The translations under genes and the position numbers were made by a program. The notes under the pieces were generated by a model. That model was not told where the DNA came from and made no database searches. It saw only the letters and a list, made by a program, of their open reading frames with translations. From Sulfurimonas sp. (GTDB taxonomy: Bacteria; Campylobacterota; Campylobacteria; Campylobacterales; Sulfurimonadaceae): a stretch of DNA of 64,000 nt. Of this stretch, positions 4,218-29,863 are shown piece after piece. The DNA lies in NCBI RefSeq assembly GCF_028694605.1, contig NZ_JAQVKP010000013.1, forward strand, positions 1 to 64,000, in the 5' to 3' direction. Numbering within the stretch: the stretch's first letter is position 1; each line of letters begins with the position of its first letter.

Positions 4218-4952
4218 TTATTCAAAATGGATAAATGCCTTTGGTTCGGGCGCTATAAACTCCATGCCTAAAAGCCTTACTTTATATGCATGAAGCATAA
4301 CCCGTTTTGCTCGTCTGCCGCCGTACTGCTCATCACCGACAATGGGATGTTCTATATATCTTAAGTGCGTTCTTATCTGATGCGTTCTTCCATGATGGAT
4401 AATACACTTCACTTTTGTCTTGTTTGCGCTTACTATGTCCGGAAAAACCTCTGTTCTTGCAGGTTTTCCTTTTGAGGATACATTTGATGATGCACGGTTG
4501 TTTTTCTTGGTGGTAAGTATGGGCTTGTCGATGTCAACAGGCTCGCTTAAAATCCCCTCAACCCATGCGATGTACTCTTTGTAAACTCTGTCTCTTTTGA
4601 ACTCTTGTATCGCTTTTTCTCTAAACTCTTCGTTTTTTACAAGCATCAAAACTCCGCTTGTTTCACGGTCTAGTCTATGCAAAAGTTGTGCCGGCTTAAA
4701 CTGTCTCTCTATCTCGTCAGAGTTAACATGAGCCGGTTTGTCCACGACAATCAAATCATCATTTTCAAAAAGAGGTTTTATCTTTTCTACTTTCTCCACT
4801 TTAAAAATCGTCTTTGTGTCGATATCGCCGCGGGCAATCATCACTTTTTTATTTGCGGCATAGACTAACCCTCGGTCAATCATTGACTTTGCTTCCGAAT
4901 TTGAGATTCCCTCTTGTGCTGCTAAAAGTTTATATGCTTTTTCTAGTGCCAT
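4218..4952 (-). CDS. RluA-family 23S rRNA pseudouridine synthase
   Basis: This enzyme converts uridine to pseudouridine in large-subunit rRNA. The 244-residue protein has an S4-like N-terminus, DDLIVVDKPAHV, and the catalytic HRLDRETSGV motif with its Asp, then HQIRTHLRYIEHPIVGDEQYG near the end. Substrate position (RluC, RluD or an epsilon-specific type) cannot be told from sequence alone. It begins after the waaA terminator. Confidence 0.88.
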   Translation of the reverse strand: MALEKAYKLLAAQEGISNSEAKSMIDRGLVYAANKKVMIARGDIDTKTIFKVEKVEKIKPLFENDDLIVVDKPAHVNSDEIERQFKPAQLLHRLDRETSGVLMLVKNEEFREKAIQEFKRDRVYKEYIAWVEGILSEPVDIDKPILTTKKNNRASSNVSSKGKPARTEVFPDIVSANKTKVKCIIHHGRTHQIRTHLRYIEHPIVGDEQYGGRRAKRVMLHAYKVRLLGMEFIAPEPKAFIHFE

Positions 4953-4983: not shown

Positions 4984-5008
4984 AAATGAAGGAATCCCTC
5001 CATTTATT
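4984..5008 (-). terminator. Intrinsic terminator downstream of waaA
   Basis: On the minus strand AAATGGAGG and CCTTCATTT flank a 4-base loop (9 bp including one G-U pair), followed directly by TTTTTTG. This is a standard rho-independent terminator for the waaA transcript. Confidence 0.65.
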
Positions 5009-5014
5009 TTGAAC

Positions 5015-5080
5015 AATGTCGGAAGTAATTCCGACATTTACGCTAGCCGCTCGGGCACTGAAGCCAACCCCTAAAGGGGT
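5015..5080 (-). repeat. Double-hairpin dispersed repeat, copy A
   Basis: Two hairpins, AATGTCGGAA/TTCCGACATT (5015-5038) and ACCCC/GGGGT (5067-5080), flank a conserved centre containing CGCTAGCCGCT and GGCACTGAAGC. A second copy is at 26882-26946. The arms differ between copies yet stay complementary, so selection acts on the fold. This copy overlaps the last codons of waaA and supplies its stop. Confidence 0.7.
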
Positions 5081-6248
5081 AGATTTGGATTTTTAGTCTT
5101 TCTATAACAGGTTCTAGGTCAATTTTTTCTTCAACCATACTCGGCGGCAACTCTTTACATTTCATAAGTGCTTTATGAATCCCATCTGGCTCGACATATT
5201 GAACATGATGCACATATCTAAAAAGCTCTTTCTGATGAAAAAAGTGTTTGCCAGTAATAATTTTACATCCAAAATGAGCCGGTTCAAGAGGGTTGTGTCC
5301 GCCTACATCCTCTCTAAAAGCGCCGCCTAAAATCGCTATATCGCTGATGGCATAGATATTGTTCAACTCCCCCATGACATCCACCAAAACCATGTCTGTT
5401 TTAAACTCTCTATCTTGAGAAAAACGGCTTAGAGACAAAGAGTTTGTCTGGGCATATTTTTTCATAAGCTCATACACGGCTTCAAAGCGCTCCGGATGTC
5501 TTGGAACAATAAAGAGCTTTGCATCACTCTGCTTTTTGTACTCTACAAATGATTTTAAAATACTCTCTTCTTCGCCATCATGTGTGCTGCCTGCGACGAT
5601 AAGCTCTTCTTGCGGCTTTTGATACTCTTTTGTTTTGGAAATTTTGCCTGCGAGCTTGATATTTCCGATTACCTCTATATTTTTAGCTCCAAGCGCCAAA
5701 AAACGGTTTTTATCTGCTTCGCTTTGCGCATATACCATCTCAACATCGGAGAGGATTTTTTGATAAAACCATGCAAATTGAAGATACTTTTTTACGCTCT
5801 TCTCAGAGATACGAGCATTTAAAAGTATAACTCTTGCGCCTTTTGCTTTTGCAACCACAAACAACATATACCAAAACTCAGCCTCTAAAACAACCAAAAC
5901 ATCATGCTTTTTAGCCCAAAACGGCAAAAACATCTCATAAGGCAGATACCTAACCTCTGCACTGTATCTTTTTGCTTCCGCTTGTCCCGTATGCGTTATG
6001 GTCGTTATTTTTATCTCATGCTCATTTAGAAGTTCCAAAATCGGTTTTAAAGCTCTTGCTTCTCCGAGTGAGCAAACATGAAACCAGATACCGCCGTCAT
6101 TTTTAAATCTTGGATTGTTAAAGAGAAAAAAACGAGCGGGAATGGACTCTTTGTATTTTTGTTTAAACGAGAGAAAAACCAAAAGCGGCAAAGCTACAAA
6201 ATAGAGCAGTGCGCTTAAGATAAAATAGAGAAGAGTAAATGGCTTCAA
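5043..6248 (-). CDS. waaA: 3-deoxy-D-manno-octulosonic acid (Kdo) transferase
   Basis: WaaA transfers Kdo from CMP-Kdo to the lipid A precursor at the inner membrane. The 401-residue protein has an N-terminal membrane anchor (LLYFILSALLYFVALPLLV), the acceptor-domain signature GIWFHVCSLGEARAL, and a donor domain with VAGSTHDGEE and GGHNPLEPA. Translation starts at TTG (6246-6248), 3 bases after the upstream stop, suggesting coupling. The final residues (about PFRGWLQCPSG) are encoded by a repeat element and are probably not ancestral. It pairs functionally with kdsA (55440) and lptD (20428). Confidence 0.93.
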   Translation of the reverse strand: MKPFTLLYFILSALLYFVALPLLVFLSFKQKYKESIPARFFLFNNPRFKNDGGIWFHVCSLGEARALKPILELLNEHEIKITTITHTGQAEAKRYSAEVRYLPYEMFLPFWAKKHDVLVVLEAEFWYMLFVVAKAKGARVILLNARISEKSVKKYLQFAWFYQKILSDVEMVYAQSEADKNRFLALGAKNIEVIGNIKLAGKISKTKEYQKPQEELIVAGSTHDGEEESILKSFVEYKKQSDAKLFIVPRHPERFEAVYELMKKYAQTNSLSLSRFSQDREFKTDMVLVDVMGELNNIYAISDIAILGGAFREDVGGHNPLEPAHFGCKIITGKHFFHQKELFRYVHHVQYVEPDGIHKALMKCKELPPSMVEEKIDLEPVIERLKIQIYPFRGWLQCPSG

Positions 6249-24432: not shown

Positions 24433-24628
24433 AGCCCGAGCAGCCGTTTCGCGTTTGGCTTGGTTCTAAAAAGCCGTATTTGGGCGAAGCGAGGCTCTAT
24501 AACGGCGGCATTATCTCGACAGAGTTAACATATCTCAAACGATAGCACCGACACACAAGAACGCTACTAGTTCGCTATGTGAAAATGTAGAACCCTCATG
24601 ATGCGATAGGTCGAACTGCCCAGACTAC
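24433..24628 (-). ncRNA. Structured ncRNA upstream of purD, possibly 6S RNA
   Basis: No ORF occupies the 300-base gap between hemD and purD. On the minus strand a perfect TATAAT (24636-24641) ends about 7 bases before the predicted start. The transcript ends pair: AGTCTGGGCAG (near 24616-24626) with CTGCTCGGGCT (24433-24443), 11 bp with G-U pairs. An inner stem GGTTCTA/TAGAACC (24588-24594 with 24462-24468) follows a large internal loop. About 196 bases and a central bubble fit 6S RNA, and 6S near a purine gene matches my recollection for this phylum. The inner part looks more branched than standard 6S. No clear T tract ends it. Confidence 0.55.
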
Positions 24629-25304: not shown

Positions 25305-26855
25305 TTACTCCCACTCTATCGTAGCTGGCGGCTTTGAAGAGATATCATACACCACGCGGTTAATCCCGTCAACTTCATTGATGATTCTTCTGCTGATTCT
25401 CTCTAAAAGGTCGTGCGGAAGATGAGCAAATGTTGCAGTCATCCCGTCAACTGCTTCAACAACTCTTACACAAACAGTGTTGTCATAAGTACGATTATCG
25501 CCCATAACACCGACTGACTTTACATTTAACAGAACTGCAAATGCCTGCCAAGTTTTTGCATAGTAGCCGCTTGCTTTTAGCTCATCAAGCAAAATAACAT
25601 CCGCTTCTCTTAAAAGATCCAAGTCCGGCTGATTCACATCTCCCATAATACGGATAGCAAGTCCGGGTCCAGGGAACGGGTGACGGTTAATCATCGACTC
25701 AGGAAGTCCAAGCTCCAGACCTATTTTGCGTACTTCGTCTTTAAAGAGTTCGCGCAATGGTTCGATTAGTTCAAAATCCATCCAATCAGGCAATCCGCCT
25801 ACATTATGGTGAGATTTTATAACCTCTGAAGGACCGTTTACCGAAACAGACTCGATAACATCAGGGTAGAGTGTGCCTTGAGCCAAAAACTTGATGCCGT
25901 CATGTTTTTTAGCCTCTTTTTCAAACTCTTCTATAAATGTATGCCCGATAATTTTGCGTTTTTTCTCAGGATCGCTTACTCCTGCAAGCTTACTTAAAAA
26001 ACTCTCTCTTGCATCAACAACTACAAGAGGAACTTTGAGGTTGATTTTAAACACCTCTTCAACCTGCTCTCTCTCGCCTTTTCTAAGCAACCCGTTGTCA
26101 ACAAAAACAGGAACAAGCTGATCGCCGATTGCTTCGTAAAGCATTGCCGCAACAACGGAACTGTCAACACCGCCACTTAGCCCGCAAAGAACTTTGCCGC
26201 TTCCGACTTTTTCGCGGATTTTTTTAATCTGCTCTTTCAAGAAGTGTTCCATCTTCCACTTCTCGGTTACGCCACAGATAGTTCTTGCAAAGTTGCGAAG
26301 CATCAAATAGCCCTCTTCGGAGTGTTGAACCTCTGGATGGTACTGCATCGCATAGATGCGTCTTGTCTCATCGGCAATCGCAGCATAAGGAGAGTTGGGA
26401 GATGTGGCAATCGGGGTAAACCCTTCAGGAAGTACATCCACCTTGTCACTGTGGCTCATCCATACAATTCTGCCGTCATCACAATCTTTTAAGAGTGGTG
26501 AACAATTGTTCTCATAATTATTTATAGTCAGTTCGGCTTTGCCGTACTCATGATGTGATGAGCGGATAACGCTGCCCCCAAAGTCAACTGCAATTCTCTG
26601 CATACCGTAACAGATACCAAGAACCGGGATACCCATCTTATAGACCTCTTGATCTACCTCATAAGCATCTTTGTTATAAACAGAAGATGGTCCTCCGCTT
26701 AAAATAACACCTTGCGGATTTTTTGCCTTGATATCTTCTGCTTTGGTATAGTAAGGAAGAATTTCACAATATACTCTATCTTCACGCAGACGGCGAGCTA
26801 TAAGCTGGGTGTATTGAGAACCGAAATCTAAAACTATGATGCTAACATTTGTCAT
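25305..26855 (-). CDS. guaA: GMP synthase (glutamine-hydrolysing)
   Basis: GuaA converts XMP to GMP. The 516-residue protein has an N-terminal class I amidotransferase with catalytic Cys in GICYGMQ and His/Glu in [13 protein letters not shown]. The ATP-pyrophosphatase P-loop is [14 protein letters not shown], and the C-terminal dimerisation domain ends [14 protein letters not shown]. It lies just upstream of hemD. Confidence 0.97.
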
Positions 26856-26881: not shown

Positions 26882-26946
26882 GCCAAAGGAAGTGATTCCT
26901 TTGGCTACGCTAGCCGCTATGGCACTAAAGCTTGCCTCAAAGAGGC
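26882..26946 (-). repeat. Double-hairpin dispersed repeat, copy B
   Basis: The first hairpin GCCAAAGGAA/TTCCTTTGGC (26882-26905) is followed by a centre with CGCTAGCCGCT and GGCACTAAAGC, then a second hairpin GCCTC/GAGGC (26934-26946). It matches copy A (5015-5080) in the centre and loop bases but not in the stem arms. Here it is wholly intergenic between nhaD and guaA. Confidence 0.7.
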
Positions 26947-26964
26947 CAAAACAATAAAACTTAA

Positions 26965-27030: not shown

Positions 27031-28419
27031 TTAATGTTTGATGTAAAGTCCAAGCACTTCAAACTGAACATACCAGATAGCAAGCGAAGCAAAATAACCT
27101 ACTAAAATAGTCCATGCGTACTTCATATGCGAACCAAACGTATAGATTCCCGGGAGTTTGCCCATAACGCCGACACCCGCTGCCGAACCAAAAGAGATAA
27201 GCGAACCGCCTACTCCGGCAGTCATTGTTACCAGCATCCACTGGTCAAGTCCCATATCAGGGTTAGCCTTTAGAATCGCCGACATGACAGGAACGTTATC
27301 TACTATAGCAGAGAGAAAACCAACTCCTATGTTTGACCATGTAGGACCAAGAACCGCCGGATCATAGACCACCGCCGCAAGTCCAAGCCAGCCCACAAAG
27401 TAGAGCGCTCCGACCGCTGCCAAGATACCGAAGAAGAAGAGAAGCGTATTGTTCTCAATCTTTGCGATGGAGTGAAAGATATTGAAGTGAGAATTATGCA
27501 CTTTTTTAAGTCTGTAGGCATAAAGCTTAAGCAGAGAGAGACCAAAGAGCATACCCCACATTGCAGGCAAATGCAACACTTGATGTGATAAAACCGCACA
27601 TACGATGGTAAATACTCCAAGTCCGATAACTACTTGAGCACCATGCATCATCTCAGGCTTTTTCTCGGTAGTCGCATCAAAAAACGGTGTCTCATCCGGT
27701 ACAAATCTACTTAAGAGATATCCCGTTACAAGAAAACCTCCGATTGAAGCGGGGAATAGGAATAGGAAGTCAATAAACTCACCTTTGCCCGCTGCCCATG
27801 CCATAAGGGTAGTGATATCTCCAAAAGGACTCCATGCACCGCCGGCATTTGCAGCTACGACTATATTGATAGCTCCGGGAACCAAGAAAGAGGCCTTGTT
27901 GCGCTCAATGGTGATAAGAACAGTAGAAAGTATAAGTGCTGTTGTTAGGTTGTCTGCAACAGGAGAGATAAAAAATGCCAATAGCCCCGTTGCCCAAAAA
28001 AGCTTTTTATAGCTGTACCCTTTAGAGACAAGGTTGTATTTTAGTCTGTCAAAGACACCCATATGAATCATTGATTCGATAAAAGTCATAGCAACGAACA
28101 AGAAGAAGAAAATCTCTGCAATTTCTAATATAATATGCTCAACCTGCGTATGAACTAGGTTCATATCCATACTGTTCACGGCATAGTAAAATGCTACGAG
28201 TATAAACAAAAATGTCCCGGTAAATAGAGCCGGTTTGGCTTTATCTATATGGTACTTCTCCTCCGCGGCAACAAAATAGTAGCCGATAACAAATATAACA
28301 AGAGAAGCGATTCCCACCCATGTAAACGTCAAATCCGGTATAGCGCCTCCATCCGAACTCCCACCGCTTGCGTAGGCAAACCCAAATCCAAGAAACAACA
28401 GTATCAACAACCTAATCAT
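27031..28419 (-). CDS. nhaD: NhaD-type Na+/H+ antiporter
   Basis: Inner-membrane sodium/proton antiporter. The 462-residue protein has an N-terminal signal-like helix (MIRLLILLFLGFGFAYA) and about 12 membrane segments, with the motifs FFISPVADNLTTALILST and FLSAIVDNVPVMSAIL typical of NhaD. I chose the ATG at 28419 because AAAAGG then has correct spacing and it overlaps the nadB stop by 8 bases. The ATG two codons upstream is possible. Confidence 0.92.
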   Translation of the reverse strand: MIRLLILLFLGFGFAYASGGSSDGGAIPDLTFTWVGIASLVIFVIGYYFVAAEEKYHIDKAKPALFTGTFLFILVAFYYAVNSMDMNLVHTQVEHIILEIAEIFFFLFVAMTFIESMIHMGVFDRLKYNLVSKGYSYKKLFWATGLLAFFISPVADNLTTALILSTVLITIERNKASFLVPGAINIVVAANAGGAWSPFGDITTLMAWAAGKGEFIDFLFLFPASIGGFLVTGYLLSRFVPDETPFFDATTEKKPEMMHGAQVVIGLGVFTIVCAVLSHQVLHLPAMWGMLFGLSLLKLYAYRLKKVHNSHFNIFHSIAKIENNTLLFFFGILAAVGALYFVGWLGLAAVVYDPAVLGPTWSNIGVGFLSAIVDNVPVMSAILKANPDMGLDQWMLVTMTAGVGGSLISFGSAAGVGVMGKLPGIYTFGSHMKYAWTILVGYFASLAIWYVQFEVLGLYIKH

Positions 28420-29863
28420 TTTCATCCTTTTGTATAAAATGTACCCCGACAGACTCGTCTCTCGCTAATGCAGCAAGGACAATCTCTCTTGCGCTAAGCA
28501 AACGAAATTTGAGTAGTTTACCAATTTTTTCATTCAAAAGAGCATTAATCTGCTCTAATGCACTCTTTAAACCGCTTTTTGTTCGAACAATGGAGACATC
28601 CTCCCACATAATACGGCGAAGCAGATTTTTCTTCTCCTTATCCTCTTTGTAGCTCATCACCTCATCAGCGACTTCAAACACAACACTCTTTTTTTGCTCT
28701 TTTTTACTCAAAAGATGTGCAACCGCTCTTTTTCCAAAAACAAGACCCTCTAAGAGCGAGTTAGAGGCAAGTCTGTTTGCTCCGTGTACTTTTGTGGAAG
28801 CAACCTCACCTACGGCATAAAGAGATTTTACGCTTGGCACTGCACCATTAATATCTGTTTTAATCCCACCTATAGCATAGTGAAATGCCGGAGATATCGG
28901 AACGCGCTGCTTTGGCACATCAAAACCTAAGTCTTGAAGATTTTTATATAGATTTGGAAAGCGTTTTGTAAAATAAACATGCTCAAAATTTTTAAATGAC
29001 AGGTAAGTCTGCATCCCTGTTTTTTTATGGTGATCGTAAATCGCTTTGCTTACGATGTCTCGTGAAGCAAGTTCGCCTCTTTCGTCATAATCAAAAAGAA
29101 ATCTTCTTCCGTTCTCATCTTCAACCGTAGCCCCTTCACCTCTTAGAGCCTCAGTAAGAAGCAGTTTTTGCGCAGAGTTGTTATCCACAAAAACAGTCGG
29201 ATGAAACTGCATCATCTCCATATCTGCAAGTTCTATCCCCTTCATCACGCAAAGCCCCTGCATGTCGGCACTGATACAAGGCGCATTGGTATGATAAGCA
29301 TACAAAGAACCTACTCCGCCGCTTGCAATGATGACATTATCCGCATAAATATTGCGGCTCTCTCTATGGTCAAGAACCGTTACGCCGTAACATTCGCCAT
29401 CTTTTATAAGCAAATCTACTACTCTGGCATCTGTTAGCATCGGGTGAGGATTTTGCTGTAGTAAAAAGTAGTGCATATAGCGACCCGTTGCATCGCCTCC
29501 CGCATGAAGAATCCTCTCTTTGGAGTGAGCTGCTTCTTTGGTGTAGAGAAGTTTGCCGTCTTTGTCTCTGTCAAACTCAAAGCCGCGCGCTATCAAATCA
29601 TCTATAATCGCCTTTGAGTTCTCACTAAGAACCCTTACTGCCATTTCATCGCAAAGACCGGCTCCCGCATCAAGTGTATCTTTGACATGAGAAGGGATAT
29701 CTTCTGCGTCAATAGCCAGAGCGATACCGCCCTGTGCGTAAAAACTGTTGCACTTAAAAGTCTCTCTTTTGTTGATAATGAGGACTTTTTTATCACGAGG
29801 CAGATGCATGGCGGCATAAAGCCCCGCTACGCCGGCTCCCACTACAATGACATCATATTTCAT
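28412..29863 (-). CDS. nadB: L-aspartate oxidase
   Basis: FAD enzyme oxidising aspartate to iminoaspartate, the first step of NAD synthesis with NadA. The 483-residue protein has the FAD-binding VVGAGVAGLYAAMHL at residues about 6-20, FYAQGGIALA, and RYMHYFLL. The C-terminal helical domain is typical. It overlaps the lipoprotein gene at its 5' end and nhaD at its 3' end. Confidence 0.95.
   Translation of the reverse strand: MKYDVIVVGAGVAGLYAAMHLPRDKKVLIINKRETFKCNSFYAQGGIALAIDAEDIPSHVKDTLDAGAGLCDEMAVRVLSENSKAIIDDLIARGFEFDRDKDGKLLYTKEAAHSKERILHAGGDATGRYMHYFLLQQNPHPMLTDARVVDLLIKDGECYGVTVLDHRESRNIYADNVIIASGGVGSLYAYHTNAPCISADMQGLCVMKGIELADMEMMQFHPTVFVDNNSAQKLLLTEALRGEGATVEDENGRRFLFDYDERGELASRDIVSKAIYDHHKKTGMQTYLSFKNFEHVYFTKRFPNLYKNLQDLGFDVPKQRVPISPAFHYAIGGIKTDINGAVPSVKSLYAVGEVASTKVHGANRLASNSLLEGLVFGKRAVAHLLSKKEQKKSVVFEVADEVMSYKEDKEKKNLLRRIMWEDVSIVRTKSGLKSALEQINALLNEKIGKLLKFRLLSAREIVLAALARDESVGVHFIQKDEND

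Follow-up and report, generated by a model that had tools for sequence, protein, structure and literature searches.

Does the 3′ end of waaA in this genome belong to the gene or to a structured repeat lying across it, and if to the repeat, how did the repeat spread and which of its strands folds? We addressed these questions starting from the window, i.e., the whole 64,000-nt stretch of Sulfurimonas sp. DNA analysed.

Two copies of a structured repeat

An earlier note, made from the letters alone, had placed copies of a repeat at 5015-5080 and 26882-26946, with a shared centre and differing but self-complementary arms. Positions, centre, and pairing were all confirmed. The note had counted two hairpins per copy, which we find as H1 and H3; a centre hairpin and, in copy A, an extra hairpin (H0) had been overlooked. 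F denotes the strand that is the reverse complement of the one on which the search model was built. The features of both loci are as follows.

4218 to 4952, minus strand: RNA pseudouridine synthase gene, downstream of waaA and copy A
4984 to 5005, minus strand: extra hairpin H0 of copy A, arms AAATGAAGG/CCCTCCATTT, 5′ of the Shine-Dalgarno sequence of the next gene
5015 to 5083, minus strand: repeat core of copy A, from pattern and covariance-model matches; F is the minus strand, i.e., the waaA sense
5015 to 5038, minus strand: H1 of copy A, 10-bp stem and 4-base loop, Watson-Crick throughout
5046 to 5056, minus strand: centre hairpin of copy A (GCC-5-GGC), within the conserved centre at 5039-5064
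5067 to 5080, minus strand: H3 of copy A (ACCCC-TAAA-GGGGT), translated within the WaaA tail
5043 to 6248, minus strand: waaA (Kdo transferase, PF04413), whose last 12 codons and TAG (5043-5045) are repeat sequence
25305 to 26855, minus strand: guaA (GMP synthase), downstream neighbour of copy B
26882 to 26950, minus strand: repeat core of copy B; F is the minus strand, in sense with both flanking genes
26882 to 26905, minus strand: H1 of copy B
26934 to 26946, minus strand: H3 of copy B (GCCTC-AAA-GAGGC)
27031 to 28425, minus strand: CitMHS-family (citrate) transporter gene (PF03600), upstream neighbour of copy B

The repeat core of ~69 bp consists of H1 (10 bp), the centre hairpin, and H3 (5 bp), and the repeat as a whole, made up of several hairpins, measures 70-135 bases. 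The centre common to copies A and B is TACGCTAGCCGCTNNGGCACT, and the conserved centre TACGCTAGCCGCTNNGGCACTnAAGC itself holds a short hairpin. H0 of copy A recurs in the waaA-site copies of genomes G004, G012, and G017, in copy L007 of the own genome, and in many other copies. Copies A and B both folded more favourably than their dinucleotide shuffles, with z values of -3.4 and -3.5, respectively. Rfam searches at gathering and lenient thresholds returned nothing plausible at the repeat. Elsewhere in the window, the purD RNA motif (RF01069) was detected at 24434-24567 on the minus strand with 81 bits.

The two palindromes could in principle be unrelated and alike by chance, and two approximate matches in the window are indeed within shuffle expectation: two centre matches with at most three mismatches were reached by 18 of 100 shuffles, while both real matches are exact. 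This reading is refuted by nine copies in the genome, occurrence in dozens of genomes, and E-values down to 1e-22, and we give it practically no credence.

Copy number and distribution

The genome-wide search for the centre that the earlier note had proposed yielded six copies in the own genome by pattern, and a covariance model made from these six raised the count to nine (E below 1e-6). In a search of relatives, the repeat was present in 33 of 60 genomes, with best E-values to 1e-22 and 0 to 39 copies per genome, the richest of the other Campylobacterota holding 37-39; the copies were collected by a model that includes structure, and decayed copies are therefore under-counted in these numbers. 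Of 298 good genomes of the phylum, 39 scored at E 1e-5 or better, and these fall in families f1 (that of the window), f4, f6, and f20 (that of G055 and S. diekertiae). The matches listed in an exact-pattern scan of GTDB were all from Campylobacterota (Sulfurimonas, Sulfuricurvum, Sulfurospirillum, and others), except for one weak match in Clostridiales (L172), which looks like chance. A single viral contig in IMG/VR had an exact core match (L241:1295-1365), and its copy is nearly identical to that of L219. The repeat was undescribed in a literature search that left figures and most subscription papers outside its reach, and an earlier partial account, for example among the GTAG repeats of PMC3733652, is possible.

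The copies lie mostly at gene edges and in both orientations. Where a gene ends at the repeat, the H1 side is a median of 8 nt from the stop codon, and there is a modest excess of copies with F in the gene sense (117 versus 75). Copies directly 3′ of tRNA genes were seen at L162:593-673 and at L228:2330-2404 and 2544-2614.

H1 and H3 covary, and H1 pairing is maintained in place

In a MAFFT alignment of six copies, 11 of 18 pairs changed on both sides, against 3.6 in shuffles, none of which reached 11 in 500 trials; pairing was destroyed when the partner was shifted by one base. The earlier note had named unpaired arms in further copies as a finding that would count against it. The opposite was seen in a many-genome set of 64 distinct copies, in which 94% of the cells pair and double-change cells numbered 281 versus 72 in shuffles; because this larger alignment was fitted to structure, the six-copy test is the cleaner one. 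H1 and H3 covary strongly, and the centre hairpin is invariant in the six copies and nearly so in the 64.

Copies from different species were also grouped by their flanks, and hand-picked pairs with stems of equal length were compared at these orthologous sites. In H1, 289 base pairs were unchanged, 16 were compensated doubles, 9 were broken, and 1 was a broken double, while single changes produced a wobble on F in 18 cases versus 5 cases with the wobble on the opposite strand; some of the compared pairs share a species, so these 338 observations are not independent. The rate of change predicted only ~3 doubles of any kind, compared with the 16 compensated ones. Decay of the lower H1 stem is low, with ~4% of its pairs mispaired. 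These results indicate that H1 pairing is maintained in place after insertion. Some stems were exchanged whole, as at the waaA site: L143 has the H3 and most of the centre of the window copy but a different H1.

Wobble counts indicate a single folded strand

A G.T pair on one strand is an A.C pair on the other, so lone wobbles tell the strands apart, and both kinds were scored equally. On the model strand, the lower H1 stems of 268 parsed copies contained 78 A.C versus 13 G.T, and the three loop-proximal pairs contained 140 A.C versus 10 G.T, the apical wobble being conserved. This asymmetry shows statistically that the folded strand is F, which in the window is the minus strand and the sense of waaA; related copies are not independent, and the p-values of the wobble counts are guides only. 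The search model is an unlikely source of the bias because it was built on the other strand, where it would if anything favour G.U. Among distinct stems, the bias was 37:4 for copies with F in sense and 16:5 for those in which F is antisense to both neighbours. A dependence of the bias on gene orientation looked real at fewer copies (25:0 versus 8:4) but was not significant at the above ratios from more copies (p = 0.25). Replication-strand bias was not significant, with 37 of 61 overall, 21 of 35 in G055, and 16 of 26 in G032.

These counts bear on an explanation in which template-switch (quasipalindrome) repair restores the symmetry of the stems and produces compensation without selection on structure. 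Such repair would suit the many compensated changes that are perfect Watson-Crick pairs and the stems swapped whole at one site (waaA in G000 versus L143). Repair between arms, however, would not be expected to yield the observed excess of A.C over G.T on one strand, and the wobble near the loop has been conserved instead of being corrected. We consider this explanation quite improbable.

Alternatively, the repeat may be a structured cis-acting RNA (a 3′ end stabiliser, processing site, or sRNA) under host selection, its movement being incidental. Compensatory evolution in place with wobble intermediates, the closeness of H1 to stop codons, the somewhat commoner gene-sense orientation, and the low decay would all be consistent with such an RNA. 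By contrast, the F-strand signal is also present in copies antisense to both neighbours, the number of copies per genome ranges from none to 39, and T-runs are scarce: a run of five within 14 nt, as in an intrinsic terminator, follows H1 on F in 4 of 292 copies and H3 on the other strand in 44 of 292. Such a cis-acting role is conceivable, though on the unlikely side.

Filled and empty sites

The waaA site is filled in G000, G004, G012, G017, and L143 and empty in G021 and G005. In the sibling Sulfurospirillum genomes G055 and G251, a 137-bp stretch at one site corresponds to 6 bp, a second site has 93 bp extra beside an apparent tRNA gene, a tandem array has two units versus three, and a further copy lacks H3 in one of the two genomes. 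These filled and empty sites show gain or loss of units. With the many copies in both orientations, they support the claim of the earlier note that the repeat is a spreading structured one. The tandem array with two units versus three in sibling Sulfurospirillum genomes (L302:1489-1678 and L331) has units of ~123 bp and an inner TTACATGTAA palindrome.

No consistent target-site duplication was found among filled and empty pairs. A candidate duplication at waaA, AAAATTAA in G012, was discarded as confounded, the same string standing beside other copies. Terminal inverted repeats were not found either; the stems are internal, and the ends of the units differ. Tandem copies excepted, most dispersed copies of one genome are ~60-75% alike, and none exceed ~93%. 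Recent transposition was rejected, as no genome holds near-identical dispersed copies, and the movement is therefore old.

The own genome and several copy-rich genomes lack a Y1 transposase gene (PF01797), no repeat lies near the four Y1 genes examined in other genomes, and no transposase was linked to the repeats. RAYT/Y1 was accordingly set aside as the mobiliser, no association with copy number or position being seen. Nevertheless, the repeat may be read as a GTAG-type REP moved by a RAYT (HUH) transposase, H1 being the REP hairpin with a GTAG foot on its 5′ side in F and the remainder a BIME-like structured spacer. The foot of H1 on F is GTAG in 147 of 268 copies; a further 57 have GAAG (31), GCAG (21), or GGAG there. 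RAYTs bind one strand only, and stem irregularities matter in some of them (PMC8266576), which would fit the conserved near-loop wobble; GTAG repeats have also been reported from epsilon Proteobacteria, including Sulfurovum (PMC3733652). On the other hand, the final G of GTAG lies in the stem, where it pairs and covaries (GC in 55, AU in 7), and the conserved centre and H3 are foreign to REPs. Together with the missing Y1 gene and the absence of any visible link to copy number or position, these features make a RAYT-moved REP an unlikely account.

The tail of WaaA

In the window, 12 codons of waaA (YPFRGWLQCPSG) and the TAG at 5043-5045 derive from copy A. The earlier note had attributed about the last ten residues and the stop codon to this copy; the overlap and the stop were borne out, and the number of codons is 12. 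The note had also suggested comparing the waaA end in relatives lacking the repeat. In two such close relatives, G021 and G005, the gene ends RILKN* or RIIKN*, without the tail. In G012, waaA ends KN* with the TAA immediately 5′ of the element, and G004 and G017 likewise stop ahead of it. The window species has one A fewer and reads KIQIYPFRGWLQCPSG* as far as the TAG of GCTAGC, and in L143 (Sulfurimonas sp. RIFOXYD12_FULL_33_39), the stop is lost and a TAG within H3 closes the frame after NPNLPL*. None of this touches the N-terminal domain of the Kdo transferase (residues 36-199).

Since G004, G012, and G017 carry the element yet keep their native stop, insertion alone is not the source of the tail. 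In the window species, the element supplies the last 12 residues only jointly with two further changes, a lost stop codon and the deletion of one base, whose order is judged from the comparison of relatives. The proposal that such a repeat can alter protein ends therefore holds for waaA with this qualification.

Mosaic modules and copies in RNase P RNA

Modules beyond H1 comprise either H0 (ATGAAGG..CCTTCAT) or a GAGTTCTTGCAGAACTC hairpin. A second type of centre, GTTTCCTTCGGCAGGAAGCCC, is combined with a hairpin of variable arms with an ACTAGT core or loop and with the same H0 and H1; repeats with this centre occur at L259:1490, L245:5730, L274:1584, L298:1521, L184:3191, and elsewhere. A nested palindrome, TACCCTCAAGGGGTACC, lies within the H1 loops or the H0 of some copies (L243:1544, L244:7783, L261:1555, L022, and L087), and other copies have an additional hairpin ahead of AAAGC.

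Four RNase P RNA genes contain one or two copies in a variable stem (L150:795-1219, L163:3097-3691, L200:5334-5878, and L201:2641-3063). The double copies are in opposite orientation in L200 and in tandem in L163. According to the L201 alignment, the insertion occupies the loop of a stem flanked by the blocks ACAGAAA...AGACCGCC and GGGUGAAA; we take this stem to be P12.

A probable once-mobile repeat, now kept in place

The repeat occupies different sites across species, can be absent from the same site in siblings, and has hairpins kept by compensatory change. It is probably a non-autonomous mosaic family of small repeats that was mobilised in trans in the past and whose hairpin is now kept in place, the waaA tail being a by-product. 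So understood, the family extends over Sulfurimonas, Sulfuricurvum, Sulfurospirillum, and related Campylobacterota, with a core of 69 bp and a difference of 93-137 bp between filled and empty sites. A trans-acting enzyme recognising the folded F strand, either as single-stranded DNA in the manner of REP/RAYT or as RNA, would have driven the past spread. Today the units would mostly be passed on at their sites, where they undergo tandem duplication and deletion, and selection would preserve the hairpin there, perhaps for a part in protecting or processing transcripts that end at it. At waaA, a unit lies just downstream of the ancestral stop; with the TAA and one A lost in the window lineage, translation continues for 12 codons through H3 and into the centre, as far as the TAG of GCTAGC. 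The tail itself is probably neutral. Several observations count against this explanation. No mobiliser was found, filled and empty pairs show no consistent target-site duplication, and no genome shows a recent jump. Lagging-strand transposition of single-stranded DNA might leave a replication-strand bias, and none was significant; a purely selfish relic would not show the maintenance in place. Decayed copies are also under-counted by a search model that includes structure.

A more specific version, which we put forward as a doubtful possibility, is that host selection now acts on a single folded strand of this once-mobile family, in each copy separately and regardless of which way the neighbouring genes are transcribed. 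If true, Campylobacterota would have a factor new to science, either a conserved protein that binds single strands specifically or an RNA borne by the element. The family is restricted to one phylum, and its filled, empty, and orthologous sites are all comparable, so that the question of selfishness versus upkeep by the host, and that of the strand involved, can be put directly for such repeats. The family also offers a species-by-species record of a repeat becoming the end of a lipopolysaccharide enzyme, and it adds a further instance of a repeat residing in RNase P RNA.

Comparison with known repeat systems

Rickettsia palindromic elements (RPE) are likewise small, structured, and interspersed, and their locations include intergenic regions, protein-coding genes, and the RNA of RNase P (PMC2229807), the last of which the present repeat shares. 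As described, RPE differ in having terminal inverted repeats and one long stem and in lying in-frame within genes. The Campylobacterota repeat has three or more separate hairpins and no terminal repeats, lies at gene edges, and belongs to another phylum; its three independent stems do not form a single long palindrome.

GTAG REPs and BIMEs with their RAYTs share with it a one-strand hairpin, a GTAG-like foot, and an intergenic, mosaic, and tandem arrangement (PMC3733652 and PMC8266576). The present repeat differs in its degenerate, partly paired tag, its 20-bp conserved centre and H3, and the lack of a linked RAYT. The term REP-like, used in the earlier note, is thus apt as a likeness in the partly degenerate GTAG foot; the stem position of the last G and the lack of a RAYT linked to the repeat or present in the own genome speak against anything closer.

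The Caulobacter CIR is similar in its ~110 bp, two hairpin arms with a linker, intergenic location, and conserved structure (PMC2229807). By its description, CIR also has a GANTC methylation site at a hairpin loop. The present repeat differs in phylum, in extra hairpins such as H0, and in having been found within an RNA gene. ERIC, Correia/NEMIS, and RUP MITEs are also non-autonomous intergenic repeats of ~100 bp, some of which affect mRNA (PMC2229807), but they have terminal inverted repeats and target-site duplications; this repeat has no terminal inverted repeats, and its filled and empty pairs show no consistent duplication. As this repeat lacks some of the defining features tested for REP/RAYT (a linked RAYT) and RPE (terminal repeats and a single long palindrome), we file it separately: it is an apparently new, mosaic, REP/RPE/CIR-like family of interspersed structured repeat.
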